Assembly: GCA_017304135.1 (NCBI GenBank)
Contig: JAFLBB010000016.1
Span: 1-64,000, forward strand
DNA: 64,000 nucleotides
Reading direction: 5' to 3'
Origin: Acidobacteriota bacterium
Lineage (GTDB): Bacteria > Acidobacteriota > Terriglobia > Bryobacterales > Bryobacteraceae
The first letter of the stretch is position 1; the number at the start of each line of letters is the position of its first letter. A program made the translations under genes and the position numbers. Shown one piece after another: positions 52,526 to 61,519 of this stretch. A model generated the notes under the pieces. The model worked only from the letters and a program-made list of their open reading frames with translations, had not been told where the DNA came from and made no database searches.

Positions 52526-52579
52526 CCGGCTGCCCGCGGGAGAGGGGGAGGCGCGGAAGTCATCGAAGGAGGGATCGTG

Positions 52580-53524
52580 ATGAACGAGGCGAGACGAGCA
52601 TCGAACCTGAGCGTGGCAAGAGAGTTTCGGGACAGCTCCCAGGGCCGTATCGGAGCGTGGCGGAGGGTGTTCCGCGGCCACGGGTTGAACATCGCCGTCC
52701 AATCGAATGACCGGACAGTATTGGATGCGCTGGCGCTGGACACCGTGCCCGGGCTTGTGCCGGCGGATGGGGAGTCACCAGACCTCAAATACACCGTACA
52801 GGTGAGTTGTTCCGGCGGCTGGCCGCGATGCGATGTGTACTTGGGGACGCGCAAGATCGCGGAGGGGATGGAGGTCCTGCAAACGCCTGGTTTTGTGCAG
52901 TCGCATGTGGAGTCGACCGTGGCGAGCGCTGCGCCAACCGAAGTATTTGTGCACGCTGGAGCAGTGGCGTGGAATGGAAGACTGATCCTGCTGCCGGGTA
53001 GGAGTTATTCGGGCAAGACCACGCTGGTGAGGGAGTTCCTCAGCCGCGGCGCAACCTATTACTCCGACGAATTCGCGGTCGTCGATTTCAGCGGGCGGAT
53101 TCATGCCTACCCGAGGCCGTTGAACCTGCGGAGCGGGGACTGGTTGACAGACCCCGAACGCGCCGCGGGAGGCGAAGTGGCGTCCAGCCGAGCCGGGCAC
53201 CGGGCGATGGAGTCCGGGTGTGCCTGCGACAAGCGGGTGTGGAAGATGGGGGTGCATCCGGTGCGGCCCGACTTGGTGGTGTTTGCGAGCTATCAGCCGG
53301 CGGGACGCTGGCGTGCCGAACGTCTTACGCCGGGATGCACGGCGCTGGAACTGATGGCCAACACGGTGGCTGCCCGGAGCCGTACGAAGTTTGCCTTGCA
53401 TTGCCTTAAGGAGATTGCACAGCGGGTCACGGCCTACAGGACGGTCCGAGGCGAGGCCGTCACGGCGGCCGATCACGTTCTGAGTCTCCTTGCAGGCGTT
53501 CACGATTCCAAACCGAACAATTGA
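52580..53524 (+). CDS. HprK-related serine kinase (HPr kinase/phosphorylase-like)
   Basis: 314 residues from ATG 52580, preceded by AAGGAGGG at good spacing (a GTG at 52577 is in frame). The core is VFVHAGAVAWNGRLILLPGR followed by the P-loop GRSYSGKTTLV, then YYSDEFAVVDFSGRIHAYPRPLNLR, the arrangement of HprK-related kinases linked with PqqD proteins. True HprK has an N-terminal DRTGG-type domain, which is not recognised here. Related kinases phosphorylate lasso peptides. It is followed within 9 bases by a PqqD-type gene and then a nucleotidyltransferase gene, so the three probably act together. The substrate is unknown. Confidence 0.82.
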   Translation: MNEARRASNLSVAREFRDSSQGRIGAWRRVFRGHGLNIAVQSNDRTVLDALALDTVPGLVPADGESPDLKYTVQVSCSGGWPRCDVYLGTRKIAEGMEVLQTPGFVQSHVESTVASAAPTEVFVHAGAVAWNGRLILLPGRSYSGKTTLVREFLSRGATYYSDEFAVVDFSGRIHAYPRPLNLRSGDWLTDPERAAGGEVASSRAGHRAMESGCACDKRVWKMGVHPVRPDLVVFASYQPAGRWRAERLTPGCTALELMANTVAARSRTKFALHCLKEIAQRVTAYRTVRGEAVTAADHVLSLLAGVHDSKPNN

Positions 53525-53533
53525 AGGAGGACT

Positions 53534-53989
53534 ATGAACCCGATTGCACGAAGGGACGACTTATCGATCGAGACGTTTCCGCAGGAGACGGTGGTGTACG
53601 ATCACCGGACTCACAAGGTGCACTGCCTGAGTCTGGCAGCGGCGACCGTGTGGCATTGTTGCGATGGGGAGACGCCGCTTCAGGAGATCCCGCACCGCTT
53701 GGCCTCCCATTTCGACTTGCCGCCTGACGAGGCGGTGACTAGAGCGGCTCTGATGCAATTGTACGCCGCGGATCTGTTGGAGCCGAATACATTTGAGCCG
53801 GACGGACGGCCGCTACCCTCACGGCGGGAACTGGCCCGGAGACTGCAGACGGCCGCAGCGGTCATGCTGCCGTTTGTCATGACGATGACGGCCCCGACAC
53901 CGGCGGCGGCACAGTCAAACAACAATCGCCCACCGCCGCCCCAGCCGAAGCCGCCACGGTACGGCAAGCCGCCGCGCAGAGGGCGCTGA
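53534..53989 (+). CDS. PqqD/RRE-domain protein with Tat-like segment and proline-rich C-terminal tail
   Basis: 151 residues, ATG after GGAGG at 53526-53530. Residues ~5-90 form a PqqD-like peptide-recognition domain (VVYDHRTHKVHCLSLAAATVW, CDGETPLQEI, LMQLYAADLLE). Unusually, the protein continues with SRRELARRL (96-104), a hydrophobic stretch (105-120) and an A-x-A site (PAAAQS, cut point about 126/127), which together look like an internal Tat signal. The final ~25 residues are proline- and Arg/Lys-rich (RPPPPQPKPPRYGKPPRRGR). The peptide-binding domain and its possible peptide cargo would thus be one polypeptide. PqqD proteins normally bind a separate precursor peptide. Function unknown. 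Confidence 0.82.
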   Translation: MNPIARRDDLSIETFPQETVVYDHRTHKVHCLSLAAATVWHCCDGETPLQEIPHRLASHFDLPPDEAVTRAALMQLYAADLLEPNTFEPDGRPLPSRRELARRLQTAAAVMLPFVMTMTAPTPAAAQSNNNRPPPPQPKPPRYGKPPRRGR

Positions 53990-54018
53990 GGACGATCCCG
54001 CATACGAGGTGGAGCGGG

Positions 54019-55242
54019 ATGAGCAAAACCCTACTTTTGCGGCTGGTCCGCGAAAGCGCCCCTGGTCCGACGGGTCGATTCCATAGCGAATACGGCTGGC
54101 CCCCGGAGGAGAGGGAGTGTGTGCTTGAGGAGGCTCTGCGGCATGGTGTTCTCGGCAGGATCTGGAAACAGCAGGGGGATCGACTGAGGACGGTGTTCTC
54201 ACCTTCGACAACCCGGCGGTGGCGGCACGCAATGCGCTGCCTGGCGGCTCGTAATCTTGCATCCTGCGATGAACTTCTCCGCGTCGTCCAGACGTTGCGG
54301 CACGAGGGCATCCGGGCCCTTCCCGTAAAGGGCCCGGCGCTGGCGGTGGCCCTCAGCGGCTCACCTTGCTCGCGAGACTATGCCGACGTCGATCTGCTCG
54401 TGGACCGTGCCGAAGCCACACCGGCGCTGGAGATCCTCCGCGCCGCGGGCTACAGGGACGCACAGACGGGCGCCTGCACGGCAGCCGGCGATCAGGTGGC
54501 GCTCACGCACCCGGACGGGACCATGGTGCTTGAGCTGCAGTGGGATCTGGGTCGGCGCTGGAATCTGCGGTCGTGTGCCGGGGAGCCGCCGTTTGTCTTT
54601 GGAGAGCTGTGGCAGAGACGGACGGCCGTGCCGTTCGGGAGTGCGGAGCTGCCCTCGCTGGCTGGAGAGGACCAGTTCCTTCTCCTTTCGGTGCACGGGG
54701 CAAGGCATTGTTGGAGAAGGCTGCTCTGGGTGTGCGACGCGGCCGATGCGGTGTCGGCGTGGCCGCAGATGGATTGGGACTTCGTGTTCGTTCAGGCCGA
54801 ACGCCTTCGATGCATTCGCCGGGTTTGCCTTGCGTTTCAGCTGAGCTCCGATGTGCTGGGAGCGCCGATCCCCGAGTTCGCTCAGCGAAGGATCAGCCGG
54901 GACGCGCGCATACCGCGCATCGCCCGCGGCATCGTCCGCCGTTGGGATGAACCCGCTCCACCGGAATGGCGCGCCGATCTCAGCGACCTCGGCTTCACAC
55001 TCTCCTCACTGGATGAGTGGCGCGACCGAGCAGGATTGGGAGGCCGGGCGTTGTGGGCATGGTTCCGGCCGAATGGGCGCGACCATGCCTTGGTGGCACT
55101 GCCGGCGTGGGCAGCGCCTGTCTACTATGCAATCCGGCCATTCCGGCTGGCCTGGCGCTACGGCCCGGAGGCGATGCAGGCATGGTTGGGATTCGCTTCA
55201 AGGGCGGAGGAGGACTCTGGTGACACAGCAATTCGCTTCTGA
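54019..55242 (+). CDS. Nucleotidyltransferase family protein of the HprK/PqqD cassette
   Basis: 407 residues. It resembles the uncharacterised nucleotidyltransferases (NTP_transf_5) found with HprK-like kinases and PqqD proteins: GIRALPVKGPALAVALSG, RDYADVDLLVDRAEATPALEIL (metal-binding DvDlLv), HPDGTMVLELQWDL and LLSVHGARHCWRRLLWVCDAADAV. In lasso-peptide clusters a nucleotidyltransferase works with the kinase on the peptide; here no lasso cyclase or leader protease is present. Starts 30 bases after the PqqD gene; its 3' end overlaps the next gene by 23 bases. Confidence 0.8.
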   Translation: MSKTLLLRLVRESAPGPTGRFHSEYGWPPEERECVLEEALRHGVLGRIWKQQGDRLRTVFSPSTTRRWRHAMRCLAARNLASCDELLRVVQTLRHEGIRALPVKGPALAVALSGSPCSRDYADVDLLVDRAEATPALEILRAAGYRDAQTGACTAAGDQVALTHPDGTMVLELQWDLGRRWNLRSCAGEPPFVFGELWQRRTAVPFGSAELPSLAGEDQFLLLSVHGARHCWRRLLWVCDAADAVSAWPQMDWDFVFVQAERLRCIRRVCLAFQLSSDVLGAPIPEFAQRRISRDARIPRIARGIVRRWDEPAPPEWRADLSDLGFTLSSLDEWRDRAGLGGRALWAWFRPNGRDHALVALPAWAAPVYYAIRPFRLAWRYGPEAMQAWLGFASRAEEDSGDTAIRF

Positions 55243-56527
55243 GGACGTCACCTGCCTGGCCGCGCGCGACATGGGCGAGTTACTGCCGTATGTCGAAGCG
55301 CTGGAAGATCTGGCGGCCCATGCCATCGAGCCTAATGTGTACTACGAGCCGTGGATGCTGATTCCCGCGGCGAAGTGGCTCGGGCACGAGGGCGAGTTGC
55401 GCTTCGTCGTGGCGCTTTCGCCGGGCGTAGACCACCGGGCCGGGGCGCCGGGCGTGATCGGGTTCTTTCCGGTGGAGACGAGCCGCCACTACGATCGGTT
55501 TCCCCTCCGTACGTTGCGATTGTGGAAGCACGAGAAGTGCTTTTTGTGTGTCCCCCTGCTGCGCGCGGGATGGGAGTACGAGGCTCTCCAGGCGTTCCTC
55601 GATTGGACGCGCGCCCGTCCGAGTGGGGGCGCCCTGATCGAGTTTGACCAGATCACGACGGGCGGCCCCTTTCATCGCGCGCTGGTCGAGGTGCTGGCCA
55701 GGAGGCGGCAACCAAGCCTGGTCGATGAAGTGTACGTCCGGTCCGTTCTCACTCGCGCGAATTCGTGCGAGGCGTTCCTGCAACAGGCCGTCAGCAGCCG
55801 GCACCGGCGGGACATGGAGAGAAAAGAGCGGAAACTGGCCAGGCTGGGCCGGCTGGAGTACGCGGCGCTGGAGCGTGAGGAGGACTTGGCGGAATGGGTA
55901 GGGCGATTCCTCGAGATCGAGTCGGGTGGGTGGAAGGGTGAGGCGGGAACAGCTTTGACACAGGTTCCTGGAGACGCCCAGTTCTTTCGCGAGGTGATCG
56001 CCGGCGCACATCGCAGGGGGCGGCTGACGATGTTGGGGTTGCGGCTGGAGGGGCGGCTGATCGCGATCAAGTGCAACCTGCGCAGCGGGCCCGTGGGCTA
56101 TGCGTTCATGATCGCCTTCGACGATCAGTATTCGGCTCACTCGCCCGGCTTGCTGCTGGAAATGGAGAACATCCGCCAGGTGCACCGGGATCCGGAAGTG
56201 TCGCGCATGGACTCGTGCGCCGATCCGGGCAACACCATGTTCTCGCGCATCTGGAACGACAAGATGCTGATCCAACGGCTGATCGCCTCCGACGGAACAG
56301 CGTTCGGCAATCTCCGCGTGGCGTCGATACCGTTGCTGCGGTGCCTCATCCGGGTAGCGCGCGCCGTCTCGCGGCCGCCTGGCGCGCGGCCGGCAGGCAA
56401 CGTCGTGGCTATGATGCCGGCAGCGGGCAAGAGGCTGGCGTCAGGCCTTGGCGATACCGGTGGAATTGCGGAGGCTGAACGGGACGGAGAAGCGGGCAAG
56501 GATGTGCCCGTAGAGAGCGTGCGATGA
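55220..56527 (+). CDS. GNAT/BioF2-like acyltransferase (FemAB-type fold), second copy
   Basis: 435 residues from a GTG at 55220 preceded by GGAGGAGG; an ATG-led longer frame lies inside the preceding gene and was rejected. The family pattern is visible: PNVYYEPWMLIPAAKWLG, VIGFFPVETSRHYDRFP, SRHRRDMERKERKLARLG and MLGLRLEGRLIAIKCNLRSG...AFDDQYSAHSPGLLLEMENI. It is a distant relative of the copy at 25375. Members act in cellulose, exopolysaccharide and exosortase loci as acyltransferases. The C-terminal ~70 residues are variable. Overlaps the next gene by ATGA. Confidence 0.78.
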   Translation: MTQQFASEDVTCLAARDMGELLPYVEALEDLAAHAIEPNVYYEPWMLIPAAKWLGHEGELRFVVALSPGVDHRAGAPGVIGFFPVETSRHYDRFPLRTLRLWKHEKCFLCVPLLRAGWEYEALQAFLDWTRARPSGGALIEFDQITTGGPFHRALVEVLARRRQPSLVDEVYVRSVLTRANSCEAFLQQAVSSRHRRDMERKERKLARLGRLEYAALEREEDLAEWVGRFLEIESGGWKGEAGTALTQVPGDAQFFREVIAGAHRRGRLTMLGLRLEGRLIAIKCNLRSGPVGYAFMIAFDDQYSAHSPGLLLEMENIRQVHRDPEVSRMDSCADPGNTMFSRIWNDKMLIQRLIASDGTAFGNLRVASIPLLRCLIRVARAVSRPPGARPAGNVVAMMPAAGKRLASGLGDTGGIAEAERDGEAGKDVPVESVR

Positions 56528-57114
56528 GGACTGTAACCACCGTTTGCCAAGCGCACGAGCAAGAAGGCTTCAGCCGGGCCAGGATCTGGCCGTGGCTATG
56601 GGGACCGAATGGCGCAATGCGGCGCCTCCTGCCCGTAGGTTTCCTTGAAACCTGTCTGCTGTGCCTACGCACGGAAGGCTGGGCTGTGGCCTTCACACGG
56701 GGATACCGGCTGCTCATGCGTCCCTTTTCGGGCGATGGGCAACGGCACCGTCCAACGCCAGAAATCCCGCGTGTTCTCGGATTGCAGCCGGGCGAGCGGG
56801 TGGAGGTGCGGGCGTTGGAGGAGATCGAGAGCACGCTCGATGAGAACGGGAAATTGGGGGGGCTGGCTTTCACATCGGAGATGAGAGCGTATTGCGGACG
56901 CCGCTTTCGCGTCTTTGAACGTCTGGAACTTCTGTATAACGAGTACACGCATCAGCACAGGACGGTGAAGAACACTGTGCTGCTCCAGAATGTCTATTGC
57001 CACGGGGTAGGATTCGGCTGCCACCGGCGCTGCTTTCATTTCTGGCGCGAAGCCTGGCTAAAGCGCGCGGCGGAGGGGGCACGGGAGGAATCGACCGGCA
57101 AGGAAGGATCCTGA
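56524..57114 (+). CDS. Conserved small protein with C-terminal Cys/His motif, unknown function
   Basis: 196 residues. A basic aromatic N-terminus is followed by a compact domain: LQPGERVEVRALEEIESTLDENGKLGGL, SEMRAYCGRRFRVFERLE, then NTVLLQNVYCHGVGFGCHRRCFHFWREAWLKR. The Cys/His spacing (YCG ... YCHGVGFGCHRRCFHFW) suggests a bound metal. I recall similar proteins beside glycosyltransferases in several phyla, without a known function. The LQPGERVEVR strand is SH3-like. It overlaps its neighbours on both sides (ATGA and one shared base), tying it to the acyltransferase before it and the MBOAT after it. Confidence 0.72.
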   Translation: MRTVTTVCQAHEQEGFSRARIWPWLWGPNGAMRRLLPVGFLETCLLCLRTEGWAVAFTRGYRLLMRPFSGDGQRHRPTPEIPRVLGLQPGERVEVRALEEIESTLDENGKLGGLAFTSEMRAYCGRRFRVFERLELLYNEYTHQHRTVKNTVLLQNVYCHGVGFGCHRRCFHFWREAWLKRAAEGAREESTGKEGS

Positions 57115-58292
57115 TGGGCCTGAGCCTGCTGGATCTCCACTTCGTTCTGTTGATGGGGCTGCTCGCGCTGGCGCGCGCGTGGGCACCCGCGCGGTACACC
57201 CTGTATGTGGGCCTGGCTGGGAGCATGCTGCTGGTGGGCCTTGCGTCGATTTCGACGCTGGGATCGATTGGACTGATCTCGCTGCTTTATCTCTATCCGG
57301 CGCACAGACTGTGGGTACGGCTGCGGCGGGGCGGCTCGACGAGACGCGCACGGTGGTTCCTCGGCCTGAGCATGGCAGGACTCATCCTCATGCTCGTGGT
57401 GTTCAAGATTCACAGACACTTCGAGGCGGCGTTTCTGGGGGGCCTGTGGCTGCACAACCAGATTCTCACGTGGGTTGGATTCTCCTACTTCATCTTTCGG
57501 GCCATCCAGTTTTTGCACATCCAGTCGGTGACACCGATCGACGAGCAGCGCCCGTGGCCGCTGCTGTACTTTATGCTGTTCCCGCCAACGCTGACCAGCG
57601 GCCCCATTCAGAAATTCCAAGACTTCCGCGAGCAGGCTGCTTCGCCGGCGCGGCTGGACGGCGCCAGCGTGGGCGAGGCGTGCTACCGCATCACGCGGGG
57701 CTACTTCCGGAAAGCGGTTTTGGCGTTTGGGTGCGACGCCATTGTCAAAGCGATGCTGAGTGCGGAGACGCCCCGCGTCTATAGCAGCGCACTGGTGATC
57801 ATTTTTCTTTACCTCTATTTCTATTTCGACTTCGCGGGATATTCGGACGTGGCGATCGGTTTTGGGTCGCTCATGGGCGTGCGTGTGCCGGAGAATTTCC
57901 GCAAGCCCTTCCTGGCCACCTCGGTAACAGAGTTCTGGCGCAACTGGCACATCACCCTGGTCGACTGGTTCCGTGACAACGTCTACATCCCGATGGGGGG
58001 CATGCGAGCGGGACGGAAGGAGGCCGCCGGCCTGGCATTCCTGATCATGGTGTTGTGCGGATTCTGGCACGGACTGACGCTCGGTTTTCTTGCCTGGGGG
58101 TGCTGGCATGGCATGTTGCTGGCGACGGAAAGCCTGACAGGCTCGCGGCCGATGCCGCCGTCGCGGAGGCAGGGTTGGTTCTATTGGGGGCGAGTGGGCT
58201 GGACGAACGCGCGAGTCGCCTTGGGAACGCTGTTTTTCCTGCCTGACCCGCAATCGGTATCCTCGGTGCTGTCGGGGTTTGCGCGATGGTAG
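57114..58292 (+). CDS. MBOAT family O-acyltransferase (DltB/AlgI-like)
   Basis: 392 residues with about ten membrane helices. The MBOAT pattern is clear: YFMLFPPTLTSGPIQKFQDF, FDFAGYSDVAIGFGSLMGV, the conserved TEFWRNWHITLVDWFRDNVYIP (His about residue 276) and the catalytic CGFWHGLTLGFLAWGCWHG (His about 317). DltB, AlgI and PatA move an acyl group from a cytoplasmic donor to an extracytoplasmic acceptor. Here the following overlapping genes encode a short single-TM protein, an SGNH protein, an acyl carrier protein and an amino acid:carrier-protein ligase-like protein. That makes a DltB-like role, with aminoacyl-carrier-protein as donor, the best reading. Confidence 0.9.
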   Translation: MGLSLLDLHFVLLMGLLALARAWAPARYTLYVGLAGSMLLVGLASISTLGSIGLISLLYLYPAHRLWVRLRRGGSTRRARWFLGLSMAGLILMLVVFKIHRHFEAAFLGGLWLHNQILTWVGFSYFIFRAIQFLHIQSVTPIDEQRPWPLLYFMLFPPTLTSGPIQKFQDFREQAASPARLDGASVGEACYRITRGYFRKAVLAFGCDAIVKAMLSAETPRVYSSALVIIFLYLYFYFDFAGYSDVAIGFGSLMGVRVPENFRKPFLATSVTEFWRNWHITLVDWFRDNVYIPMGGMRAGRKEAAGLAFLIMVLCGFWHGLTLGFLAWGCWHGMLLATESLTGSRPMPPSRRQGWFYWGRVGWTNARVALGTLFFLPDPQSVSSVLSGFARW

Positions 58293-58441
58293 ACGGCGGG
58301 CGCATCGAGCCGCTGTGGGGGGGCCATGCCGGCAAACTGCTGCGCTGGTCACTCATGTCGGCGGCGCTGTTCTGGATGCTGGTTTACCGTCTCAGTTCCG
58401 CCGCCAGTGCCTTCCCGGACTTCGTGTATGTCCATTTTTGA
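58286..58441 (+). CDS. DltX-like 51-residue single-TM protein
   Basis: Too short for routine gene calling, but start and stop fit its neighbours: it begins 7 bases inside the MBOAT gene and ends 14 bases inside the SGNH gene. The sequence has a basic N-terminal part (GGHAGKLLRW), one membrane helix (~19-40, MSAALFWMLVYRL) and a C-terminus ending FVYVHF (46-51). DltX, the small partner of DltB in D-alanylation, also is ~50 residues, has one helix and ends in an F-x-Y-x-x-F motif (FIYNEF) whose tyrosine carries the acyl group. Tyr48 here sits in the same position. No other function is apparent. Confidence 0.72.
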   Translation: MVDGGRIEPLWGGHAGKLLRWSLMSAALFWMLVYRLSSAASAFPDFVYVHF

Positions 58442-59624
58442 TAGCTGGTGGAGTGCTTCGCGTTGGAACTTCGCGATCATCCCGGCGGGCGTGTGGCTGC
58501 TCTCCCTACCGGCGGCAGAGTTGGCCTTCCGGCTCGCAGGCGACAGGCCCACCACGGAACTGGAGGGCCTCTACGAGGAGTTCGGCTCGCTCAGTTACAA
58601 GCACAGGGCGCACGTGGTGGCCGACGCCGACTGGATCGAGGGGCGGTTCTCGGTGGCCACCGACGCTTACGGACTCCGTTGCTCAAGGGGGGAGGCGGGC
58701 CCCGCGCTGACGCTGAGGAACCTGGATCTGCTCCTACTGGGCGACTCCCAAGGCTATGGACAGGGGCTGGAATTCGAGCAGACGATTTCCGGCGTGCTTT
58801 CCAGACTGGCCGCGCGACGGGCGATGAGCGTGGGGAACGCATCCGTGGGCGGGCACTATCTCGAGAACCAGTTCGAGTTGTTGCGCTGGTTGTACACCCG
58901 CGGGGTGCGGCCGAGGTCGGTGCTGATCCTGATGACGCCCTATCTGGTTGCGAGCAGCGGGCGGTTGAATCGGGCGCACGTGGACGCCCGCGGCAGACTC
59001 ACGAATGGAGCGGGTGGCCGGCGCGAGCGCATGACGTTGTGGCTGAAGACGCACACGGTCGTCTACACACGACTCCGCAACAGCGTGCGGGGACTGATTC
59101 CGCTGGACCGCGACCGGGAGGCGCCGCTTCTCATCCGGTTTTACTCGAAGCAATTCGAACCGGATTATCGCGCGCGGCTGATCAGTTTCCTTGACGGGCT
59201 GGCGCGGTGGACAACCGAGCGCGGAATGGATCTGGTTCTGGTCTACACGCCCCTGGCCGCGGAGATGGAGTTCGCGATGATCGCCCGCGCCGCACGGGAG
59301 CGCGGCATCGAGACGGATTCGGACATGCTGTATCGCACGACGGCATGGGCCGCCGGGGAACTGGGGGTCCCGGTGCTGGATCTTCGTCCGGTACTGGAGC
59401 GGGCGCGCGCCTCTGGCCAGCCGCTGACCCTGCTCAAGGACCCCCACTACAATGCCGCCGTTTCGGCCGCGTGCGCCGAGGCGATCTGGTCGTCGATCGA
59501 CGGTGAACGAGCACGCCCCAGGCGGGGAGAGACGCCCGCATCCAGGAGGAGATATGGAGTTAGAGCAGGCATCCGCCACGCTGCGCGATTACGTCCGGAC
59601 GAGTTTCCAGATTCCCGACAGTGA
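58428..59624 (+). CDS. SGNH-hydrolase-like protein with N-terminal anchor (DltD/AlgX-like)
   Basis: 398 residues. One N-terminal helix (NFAIIPAGVWLLSLPAAELAF) places the rest outside the membrane. The SGNH blocks are LLLLGDSQGYGQG (block I; the serine of GDSQ about residue 106), GNASVGGHYLENQFE (block II/III) and LLKDPHYNAAVS (D-x-H, about 337), the layout of AlgX/AlgJ and DltD-type proteins that finish acyl transfer to a polymer. The gene overlaps the 51-residue protein by 14 bases and the carrier-protein gene by 71. It should transfer the acyl group, possibly aminoacyl, from the membrane complex to the polysaccharide. Confidence 0.83.
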   Translation: MSIFDSWWSASRWNFAIIPAGVWLLSLPAAELAFRLAGDRPTTELEGLYEEFGSLSYKHRAHVVADADWIEGRFSVATDAYGLRCSRGEAGPALTLRNLDLLLLGDSQGYGQGLEFEQTISGVLSRLAARRAMSVGNASVGGHYLENQFELLRWLYTRGVRPRSVLILMTPYLVASSGRLNRAHVDARGRLTNGAGGRRERMTLWLKTHTVVYTRLRNSVRGLIPLDRDREAPLLIRFYSKQFEPDYRARLISFLDGLARWTTERGMDLVLVYTPLAAEMEFAMIARAARERGIETDSDMLYRTTAWAAGELGVPVLDLRPVLERARASGQPLTLLKDPHYNAAVSAACAEAIWSSIDGERARPRRGETPASRRRYGVRAGIRHAARLRPDEFPDSRQ

Positions 59625-59817
59625 TCCAGACTTCAATGACGACGTGCACCTTTTCGATTACGGATACGTGGATTCCTTCGGCGCCGTCGGCCTATTGCAC
59701 TTTGTGGAATCCGCCTTTGGCGTGGAGATCCGCGAGGCCGACCTGGTTGCATACCCGCTGAACACCATCCACCAGATCACCAGATTCGCGATGCGGCGCA
59801 AGAACGGAGAGCTATGA
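59554..59817 (+). CDS. Acyl carrier protein (DltC-like)
   Basis: 87 residues from ATG 59554 after a strong AGGAGG site, starting 71 bases inside the SGNH gene. The carrier-protein signature is DYGYVDSFGAVGLLHFVESAFGVEI; S41 in VDSFG is the expected phosphopantetheine site. The length and acidic nature fit an ACP/PCP. It is next to an aaRS-like ligase gene (ATGA overlap), so it most likely receives an amino acid, not a fatty acid. A PCP for a nonribosomal peptide is unlikely because no condensation or adenylation modules are near. Confidence 0.9.
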   Translation: MELEQASATLRDYVRTSFQIPDSDPDFNDDVHLFDYGYVDSFGAVGLLHFVESAFGVEIREADLVAYPLNTIHQITRFAMRRKNGEL

Positions 59818-61007
59818 ACATGACGGAGCTCAGTGTTGAACTGGCCAACCTCGAAGACAGCTACCTCAACCAGGTTCAGTACGCGTTGACGTTTGCTTCG
59901 GAATCCGTCGAGGGCTATTGCATTGACCGTGACGCGAAGAGCGTGCGGCTTCGCTTGAGGCCCGGCGCGGACCAGGAAGAGGTCTCGGCGCGGGTGCGGC
60001 AACTACTGGGCCGGTTTGAGTCCGGCGAGTTCGGATTCAAATCGGTAGTCCATATGGACCGGAGGCGTGAGCTACCGAAGCGAGACACTTGGGCCGAATT
60101 GCTCGATCGGCGCTGGGTCACGCAGGTGGGCGAAGGTCAGGTGATCCTGAGAGGGCCGGCGGCGGAACTCGCGCGGGTGATCGACCACAAAGTGGAATCG
60201 GAGTTCGTGCGCGAGTTCCAGGCCGAACACGAGATCTACCCGCCGACGATCAACTGCCGGACGCTGGACCGCTGCGGCCACTTCACCTCGTTTCCTGAGC
60301 ATGTGGATTTCGTCGCGCATCTGCGGCCGGACCTGGAACATCTGAGGTCGTTCGCCGAGAGATGCCGGGAGCGTGGCTGGCAGCCTGATCACCATGAAGG
60401 AAAGATGCATGTGGTGGAACTAGCCATCAGCCCGTCGTGTTGTTATCACTGCTACGAGGGGATGTCGGAGTGGCGCCTGCCTCCGCCGGGGCGGTGCGTG
60501 ACAGCGACGCTGAGCTGCCACCGTTACGAGGGGGCCAACCATCAGAGTCTTGCCCGGCTGCGCTCGTTCACCATGCGGGAGGTGATCTGGGTTGGCCAGC
60601 CGGCGTTTGTTCTGGCAGCCAGGGCGAGGGCGGAGGAACTGATCCAGCGCTGGGCCGGCGACTGGGAGTTGTCCTGCACCTTTGAGACGGCGAACGACAT
60701 GTTCTTCACAGACGATTTTGCGGTGAAGGCGTCGTTCCAACGGCAGCAGGAAGCCAAGCGCGAGTTGCGCGCTGACCTTCCGTTCGAGGGGCAATCGTTG
60801 AGCCTGTTTTCATCAAACTTCCACTCGGCTACGTTCGGAAAGGCGTTTCACATCCAGGTGAGCGAACGGCCGGCCACGAGCGGCTGCATCGGCTGGGGTT
60901 ATGAGCGGTGGGTGTACGCGGTGTTCTGTCAGTTCGGCTGTGACTGGAGGCAATGGCCGGATGGGCTGCGCCGCGACTGGGATGCGGCTGGAGGCAGGTT
61001 GTGGTGA
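59814..61007 (+). CDS. Seryl-tRNA-synthetase-like amino acid:[carrier protein] ligase
   Basis: 397 residues, a class II aminoacyl-tRNA synthetase-like core. It shows motif 2 RSFTMREVIWVGQPAFVLAAR (about residue 250) and motif 3 SGCIGWGYERWVYAVFCQFG (about 355), with Cys-rich segments CRTLDRCGHF and SPSCCYHCYEG that could carry the zinc found in archaeal-type SerRS paralogues. These paralogues charge an amino acid (Gly or Ala in known cases) onto a carrier protein, not tRNA; their cellular role is not established. The first ~110 residues form an extra domain that is not the tRNA-binding coiled coil of SerRS. The start overlaps the carrier-protein stop by ATGA. Confidence 0.82.
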   Translation: MNMTELSVELANLEDSYLNQVQYALTFASESVEGYCIDRDAKSVRLRLRPGADQEEVSARVRQLLGRFESGEFGFKSVVHMDRRRELPKRDTWAELLDRRWVTQVGEGQVILRGPAAELARVIDHKVESEFVREFQAEHEIYPPTINCRTLDRCGHFTSFPEHVDFVAHLRPDLEHLRSFAERCRERGWQPDHHEGKMHVVELAISPSCCYHCYEGMSEWRLPPPGRCVTATLSCHRYEGANHQSLARLRSFTMREVIWVGQPAFVLAARARAEELIQRWAGDWELSCTFETANDMFFTDDFAVKASFQRQQEAKRELRADLPFEGQSLSLFSSNFHSATFGKAFHIQVSERPATSGCIGWGYERWVYAVFCQFGCDWRQWPDGLRRDWDAAGGRLW

Positions 61008-61519
61008 CCGCCAGGCCCAGCCTCGAGCGGCTTGCGCCACAGCAGTACGCACTTGCCGCGCAGTGGCTTTCCGACCCGGCTATCAACCGCTGGCTGACAA
61101 GCGAATGGCGCGGCAGGAGAGTGGATGCGATGACGATGGGGATCCTGATGCGCGACCGCAGGAATGCCGTCTATCTGGTACGGCAGGAAAACGTGCCGTG
61201 CGGACTGGCAGCGTTGGCGGAAATCGACATGTCGGACCGGGTGGCGATGGTGTGGTATCTCCTCGGGGATCCTCGCTACGCGGGAGGAGGAGTGACAGCG
61301 CGGGCCGTTGCAGAGCTGGTTGCGATTGCTTTTCAGGAACTGAAGCTTGCCTCGCTGTACGCGTGGATCATGGAGGACAACGCGCGTTCGCGTCGAGTTC
61401 TTGAAAGGTGCGGGTTTCGCGAGGCCGGGCGCATCCGGAGGGCAACGTATTCTGGCGGCAGGCAACTGGACCGGATTTACTTCGATATCGTCTCCCCCGA
61501 CGTGGAGAATGTCGCATAA
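61004..61519 (+). CDS. GNAT family N-acetyltransferase
   Basis: 171 residues from a GTG at 61004 that overlaps the ligase stop (GTGA). The RimJ/RimL-like GNAT fold is evident: LERLAPQQYALAAQWLSDPAINRWL, WYLLGDPRYAGGGVTARAV (acetyl-CoA loop) and LASLYAWIMEDNARSRRVLERCGFREAGRIR. It may acetylate an amino group of a sugar or of the aminoacyl product, or use an acyl carrier donor. It is the last gene of the compact acylation module. Confidence 0.85.
   Translation: MTARPSLERLAPQQYALAAQWLSDPAINRWLTSEWRGRRVDAMTMGILMRDRRNAVYLVRQENVPCGLAALAEIDMSDRVAMVWYLLGDPRYAGGGVTARAVAELVAIAFQELKLASLYAWIMEDNARSRRVLERCGFREAGRIRRATYSGGRQLDRIYFDIVSPDVENVA

Follow-up and report, generated by a model that had tools for sequence, protein, structure and literature searches.

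The window analysed here, a stretch of 64,000 nucleotides from an Acidobacteriota genome of the family Bryobacteraceae (contig JAFLBB010000016.1, positions 1 to 64,000), carries a set of six overlapping genes that encode an MBOAT protein, a microprotein with a single transmembrane (TM) segment, an SGNH-type acyltransferase, an acyl carrier protein (ACP), a class II synthetase-like amino acid:[carrier protein] ligase and a GNAT-family N-acetyltransferase (Table 1). An earlier note on this DNA had described five overlapping genes followed by a GNAT, and the corresponding frames were found to be open at or near the coordinates proposed there. The first four products had been likened to DltB, DltX, DltD and DltC of the Dlt system (dltXABCD), which carries out the D-alanylation of teichoic acids. 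This likeness was borne out by profile matches for the MBOAT, SGNH and ACP proteins, and by the FXYXXF sequence at the end of the microprotein, the only product of the set whose assignment is not backed by profile searches. Consecutive genes overlap by 7, 14, 71, 4 and 4 nt, respectively, and the 71-nt overlap between the SGNH and ACP genes is credible because a strong AGGAGG sequence precedes the ACP start codon. The overlaps had also been taken as evidence of one complex, but the junctions point to co-translation and not to physical association. Altogether, the data presented below make it likely, by sequence and by analogy, that the set encodes a Dlt-like system for the O-aminoacylation of an envelope polymer, with a class II amino acid:[carrier protein] ligase taking the place of DltA.

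Table 1. Genes of the Dlt-like set in the window and other features mentioned in the text (positions refer to the window unless a locus is named).
Feature	Position	Strand	Length (aa)	Profile match or remark
MBOAT, DltB-like	57114-58292	+	392	PF03062 2.7e-24; TIGR04091 (DltB) 1.5e-54, below the equivalog cut-off of the model
DltX-like single-TM microprotein	58286-58441	+	51	C-terminus FVYVHF
SGNH-type acyltransferase, N-terminal membrane segment	58428-59624	+	398	PF16822 (ALGX) 2.9e-8
Acyl/aminoacyl carrier protein (ACP)	59554-59817	+	87	PF00550 2.2e-7; TIGR01688 (DltC) 1e-5, below cut-off
Class II synthetase-like amino acid:[carrier protein] ligase	59814-61007	+	397	NF005479 5.1e-38 (130.8 bits, cut-off 357)
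GNAT-family N-acetyltransferase	61004-61519	+	171	PF13302 7.2e-17; GTG start
Upstream open reading frame overlapping the MBOAT start	56524-57114		196	No Pfam or NCBIfam match
HPr-rel-A system genes and NTP_transf_5 gene	52577-55242			Within the exopolysaccharide cluster
FG-GAP protein	L026:6529-9714 and Paenibacillaceae homologues; L119:12880-16104; L130, L131			Upstream of the module in most loci, downstream in L119
TIM-barrel isomerase-like protein	L026:13456-14460 and homologues			PF01261
Ligases beside synthase-like proteins	L117:8316-9815; L121:8275-9504
Second MBOAT of the window genome (contig C146)	L129:3054-7644			AlgI-type, beside an SGNH-like protein

Among solved structures, the best match of the window MBOAT was DltB (PDB 6bug, 3.2e-35), and its histidines H279 and H319 (FWHG) were both kept in 77 of 77 aligned MBOATs. 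An FXYXXF sequence at the extreme C-terminus is the acyl-shuttle motif of the Dlt and PatA systems, where its tyrosine is acylated; Dlt has it on a microprotein, DltX, whereas in PatA-type systems the MBOAT itself ends in it (PMC12148441). The window MBOAT does not end in this motif, which is supplied by the adjoining microprotein gene. Only one of the 778 open reading frames (ORFs) of at least 25 residues in the window has an FXYXXF ending, and it is the microprotein, whose TM segment was read from the sequence and not by a prediction program. In addition, the ending was present in 80 of the 18,019 ORFs of 80 related loci, and these were exactly 78 microproteins, all with the conserved tail, and two MBOATs to which the motif is fused. 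The SGNH protein shows GDS (Ser107) and DPHY motifs, is predicted to have a role like that of DltD or AlgX and is 43% identical to its homologue in another acidobacterium (locus L024); the serine and the histidine are invariant in the 77 Paenibacillaceae SGNH proteins aligned. No SGNH entry of the PDB was matched by sequence profile with either the Paenibacillaceae or the acidobacterial SGNH proteins, and the model of a Paenibacillaceae member (pLDDT 82) matched SGNH enzymes including DltD and PatB (E 1.5e-4 for DltD, 6o93). Finally, the phosphopantetheine serine of the window ACP is S41, in the sequence GYVDSFG, and the DS pair is invariant in all 81 ACPs of the module loci.

To determine the distribution of the gene set, 84,980 species genomes were scanned with a ligase alignment as query. 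The best 80 loci were retained; three come from metagenome-assembled genomes of acidobacteria, at about 61-63% identity, and 77 from Paenibacillaceae, at 38-42%. The recurrence of the gene order had been left as a question, and we found the order unchanged in the acidobacterial locus L024, which reproduces the window operon gene for gene (MBOAT-microprotein-SGNH-ACP-ligase-GNAT), and rearranged in the 77 Paenibacillaceae loci and in three further Bacilli loci. The Paenibacillaceae loci share the order FG-GAP protein-ACP-ligase-SGNH-microprotein-MBOAT (77/77), except that in three of them the contig ends cut off the MBOAT and in another it lies displaced; their microprotein is typically of 36 residues and ends in FIYE-x-F. 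All parts of the module are kept in L119, L130 and L131, from Bacilli outside that family, the order being changed in L119. In the two remaining acidobacterial loci, L023 and L025, the ACP-ligase-GNAT genes are divergent from an MBOAT-SGNH pair. The MBOAT there is longer, of another type and fused to a C-terminal FVYFAF; the putative SGNH label of its partner was derived from position and from reading the protein itself, as no Pfam match was obtained. The ligases of these two loci lie inside the window's own clade (support 100/100), and therefore the relay has been exchanged and the ligase-ACP input retained. These arrangements also bear on whether the module might be an ordinary polysaccharide O-acyltransferase, with an ACP that carries fatty or other acyl groups and a ligase from another pathway. 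MBOAT and SGNH proteins do commonly move acetyl or other acyl groups, and the ACP matches several ACP families weakly. However, we consider this very unlikely, since ACP and ligase genes are adjacent in all 81 module loci, from two phyla, and stay linked to the MBOAT-SGNH pair even after replacement of the pair, and since acetyl-type MBOAT/SGNH systems have neither carrier protein nor microprotein (PMC12148441).

We then considered the ligase, which would provide the aminoacyl group in a Dlt-like module. The predicted structure of the window protein (mean pLDDT 75) resembled type-2 seryl-tRNA synthetase (SerRS), with a Z score of about 28, and the glycine:[carrier protein] (Gly:CP) ligase, with about 26 (range over both 25-28), in line with the resemblance anticipated in the earlier note. 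Its nearest solved structure is the Gly:CP ligase Bll0957 (PDB 3mey, 1.1e-25). The zinc and class II motif residues C210, E256, C358, R237, R255 and R365 were invariant in the 81 module ligases aligned, an outcome in favour of the earlier proposal, against which a loss of ATP or amino-acid pocket residues would have spoken. C210, E256 and C358 align to C151, E196 and C299 of the 3mey chain, and the zinc ligands of Bll0957, C131, E176 and C279, fit this alignment at a constant offset of 20 residues, the length of a tag. In a maximum-likelihood tree, 22 module ligases formed one clade (support 99/94), with the ligase of locus L012 next to it and ligases from other contexts outside. By its predicted fold, its zinc site and the neighbouring ACP, the protein is placed with the amino acid:[carrier protein] ligases.

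The fold itself leaves room for another interpretation, namely that the enzyme is a divergent type-2 SerRS that charges tRNA, with aminoacyl-tRNA as the donor. Type-2 SerRS is among the closest folds, and an extra N-terminal domain of about 90 residues aligns with part of the type-2 SerRS N-terminal domain, so that tRNA binding is formally possible, a point that counts against the carrier-protein assignment. The alignment of this domain starts at residue 98 of the SerRS chain, so it looks truncated, and model confidence in this part is moderate. On the other hand, sequence-profile comparison with the PDB placed the ligase nearer to the Gly:CP ligase (2e-37) than to SerRS entries (7e-31 and 3.4e-16), and its invariable position beside an ACP argues against tRNA charging. 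Furthermore, those relatives that have been characterised no longer aminoacylate tRNA (PMC9437257). We regard a tRNA-charging role as highly improbable.

The adenylation enzyme DltA had been noted as absent, with a synthetase paralogue in its place, and in agreement with this no DltA is encoded in the operon, nor was any DltA-like protein found in the window genome at E<=1e-30. A control search recovered DltA in Bacillus subtilis and Lactococcus lactis. Of 104 genomes of the GTDB family that includes Paenibacillus athensensis (Paenibacillales), 96 had the ligase and four a DltA-like match at 1e-110; the DltA counts are lower bounds, as an initial filter scored just a subset of the candidates in each genome. 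In a wider sample of the order, 98 of 395 genomes had the ligase, and 96 of these were from the same family. A class sample of 300 genomes gave three ligase matches, two of them full length, and 49 with DltA, none shared with the full-length two. Among 15 module-bearing genomes, a single DltA over the cut-off was detected (Gordonibacillus kamchatkensis, L103); it carries an in-frame TAG, which may reflect a decaying dlt system or an assembly error.

Taken together, these data are consistent with a three-step scheme. First, the zinc-dependent ligase would use ATP to activate a small amino acid and load it onto the phosphopantetheine of the adjoining ACP, as judged from homology to a biochemically studied enzyme (PMC9437257). 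The MBOAT, by analogy with DltB/DltX, would then carry the aminoacyl group across the membrane to the tyrosine of the microprotein FXYXXF at the outer face, and the SGNH protein would take it on its catalytic serine and esterify a hydroxyl of the envelope polymer, as DltD and PatB suggest. The amino acid is most likely glycine or alanine, with serine also possible; the first two are favoured because the closest characterised enzymes use them. It is likely, on these grounds, that a family of Paenibacillales and scattered acidobacteria aminoacylate an envelope polymer by means of Dlt-like machinery that receives its amino acid from a class II synthetase homologue and not from DltA.

Several observations weigh against this interpretation. 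The ligase does not reach the NF005479 cut-off (amino acid--[ACP] ligase), nor the MBOAT the TIGR04091 cut-off, and the two proteins are therefore not equivalogs of these families. The Pfam DltX family was not matched by the microprotein of the window (E<=1) or by that of L026 (E<=0.01). A strict one-for-one replacement of DltA within the Paenibacillus athensensis family is not supported, as the four genomes with DltA also have the ligase and eight ligase-negative members are also without DltA. Overall, the earlier proposal is supported in part: a Dlt-like module with a ligase for DltA gains from gene linkage, conserved residues and recurring order, while the exopolysaccharide as acceptor and a positive charge of the product are more tentative. 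In addition, sequence alone does not reveal the identity of the amino acid, and no polysaccharide or polymer genes were seen around the module in the annotated Bacilli (Paenibacillaceae) loci.

This last observation would fit an acceptor other than a polysaccharide, be it a lipid, part of the peptidoglycan or a protein at the cell surface. A candidate for the latter is an FG-GAP protein of about 1,060 residues, with a weak DUF4159 match, that is conserved beside the Bacilli modules, the rearranged one included, and could be a partner or an acceptor. However, homologues of this protein were not found in the acidobacterial module loci, the window module sits in an exopolysaccharide cluster, and glycans or teichoic acids are the substrates of characterised MBOAT-SGNH systems. 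An acceptor of this kind is consequently unlikely. For the window, the acceptor of the aminoacyl group is probably the polymer made by the exopolysaccharide cluster in which the module lies, a cluster that comprises polysaccharide export, chain-length, tyrosine kinase, O-antigen-ligase-type, sugar transferase, flippase and HPr-rel-A genes; for the Paenibacillaceae, it is most likely an envelope polymer.

Regarding the sixth gene, the GNAT is linked to the ACP and ligase genes in the four acidobacterial module loci (4/4), with homologues of 50-52% identity after the ligase in L023, L024 and L025, and no homologue was found in the Paenibacillaceae module loci. The GNAT might acetylate the aminoacyl-ACP, so that acidobacteria would deliver a neutral N-acetyl-aminoacyl ester and the GNAT-less Paenibacillaceae a free amino acid. 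This possibility, which we entertain tentatively and with some doubt, gains from the persistence of the GNAT with ACP and ligase even where MBOAT and SGNH were exchanged, and from a ligase-GNAT pair, with a different GNAT, in the acidobacterial polysaccharide locus L012. Against it stand the lack of a GNAT homologue in the Paenibacillaceae module loci and the top-scoring family of the window GNAT, which is the sugar-nucleotide N-acetyltransferase PseH (8e-12, below cut-off) and for which reason a sugar within the polymer may be the true substrate of the enzyme. A positive charge had been attributed to the modified polymer; this claim should wait, because a GNAT linked to the ligase in all four acidobacterial loci could acetylate the amine.

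As for other genes close to the module, the 196-residue ORF upstream and a VanZ-like gene downstream abut the set, and both lie outside the recurring unit; the ORF was not seen beside related modules. The exopolysaccharide cluster also contains an HprK-related kinase A and a PqqD-like protein, which form an HPr-rel-A system, together with an NTP_transf_5 nucleotidyltransferase, and an NTP_transf_5-like gene is paired with an ACP and a related ligase in locus L014. In the Paenibacillaceae, a highly conserved TIM-barrel isomerase-like protein usually follows the module and may be a mere neighbour.

Relatives of the ligase also occur outside the module. A first scan of the phylum detected ligase homologues in 11 of 396 acidobacterial genomes, mostly in unrelated contexts, and the non-module ligases fall outside the clade, so the ligase alone is no marker of the module. 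L012, which holds the nearest non-module ligase, in a polysaccharide cluster, was left unassigned: the ligase gene is truncated by the start of the contig, and the one MBOAT found in the genome lies on another contig and not by an ACP. Another clade of the ligase family (L013, L015, L016 and L118) has a recurring set of neighbours, namely AurF-like diiron proteins, a reductase-like protein and an acyl-CoA ligase, which suggests a second, different biological use. Two further ligases (L117 and L121), one of them in an acidobacterium of the window's family and the other in a Paenibacillales genome, lie beside very large synthase-like proteins and an acyl-CoA dehydrogenase. The neighbour labels in L013-L016, L117, L118 and L121 were read from sequence, without a profile scan. 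In the window genome itself, a second MBOAT with a fused FIYFQF end (L129) is accompanied by a 573-residue ORF whose sequence looks like that of an AMP-forming acyl ligase; the genes may belong to another unusual donor system.

No description of this gene set was found among 5.4 million open-access papers, subscription papers and preprints being outside the search, and a 2022 review gave the biological role of amino acid:[carrier protein] ligases as unknown. If our interpretation is true, the module would represent the first physiological role for these enzymes and a second, independent route feeding amino acids into an MBOAT-SGNH acyl relay. The linkage gives one ligase clade a specific, testable job in bacteria that form a large group and can be cultured. 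It also runs counter to the assumption that the use of a carrier protein plus microprotein with the MBOAT-SGNH relay is confined to Dlt systems fed by DltA (cf. PMC12148441), and indicates that the activating enzyme and the relay are each exchangeable. Furthermore, a large group of Paenibacillaceae is predicted to carry an unrecognised amino acid ester on the cell envelope, with possible effects on surface charge, cation binding and sensitivity to cationic peptides.

Comparison with known systems shows what is shared and what is distinct in the module. With PatA/PatB and AlgI/AlgJ/AlgX it has in common the MBOAT and SGNH proteins and the FXYXXF acyl-tyrosine shuttle, which in L023 and L025 is fused to the MBOAT as in PatA; unlike the module, these systems use acyl-CoA and contain neither carrier protein nor amino acid ligase. 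In the AlmEFG system, responsible for lipid A glycylation in Vibrio cholerae, an amino acid is likewise activated, loaded onto a carrier and transferred to an envelope molecule, but AlmE is a DltA-type adenylation enzyme, AlmG is an LPLAT-type transferase, and there is no MBOAT or SGNH protein. The Bradyrhizobium ligase Bll0957 (PDB 3mey/4h2s) shares with the module ligases the catalytic core, the zinc ligands, the class II motifs and the adjacent carrier protein, whereas the module ligases have an extra N-terminal domain, form a separate and well-supported clade and are linked to MBOAT, microprotein and SGNH genes, a context undescribed for this enzyme class in the literature examined. The closest parallel is Dlt itself, where the genes for a DltB-like MBOAT, an FXYXXF microprotein, an SGNH protein and a carrier protein likewise accompany that for an enzyme dedicated to amino acid activation. 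This enzyme is the ANL-type DltA in Dlt and a class II synthetase homologue in the module; in addition, the gene order differs, the window module is located in a Gram-negative exopolysaccharide cluster, and the acidobacterial modules add a GNAT. Altogether, the gene set is predicted to work like Dlt, yet strictly speaking it does not qualify as a Dlt operon, because DltA is absent and the microproteins fall outside the Pfam DltX family.

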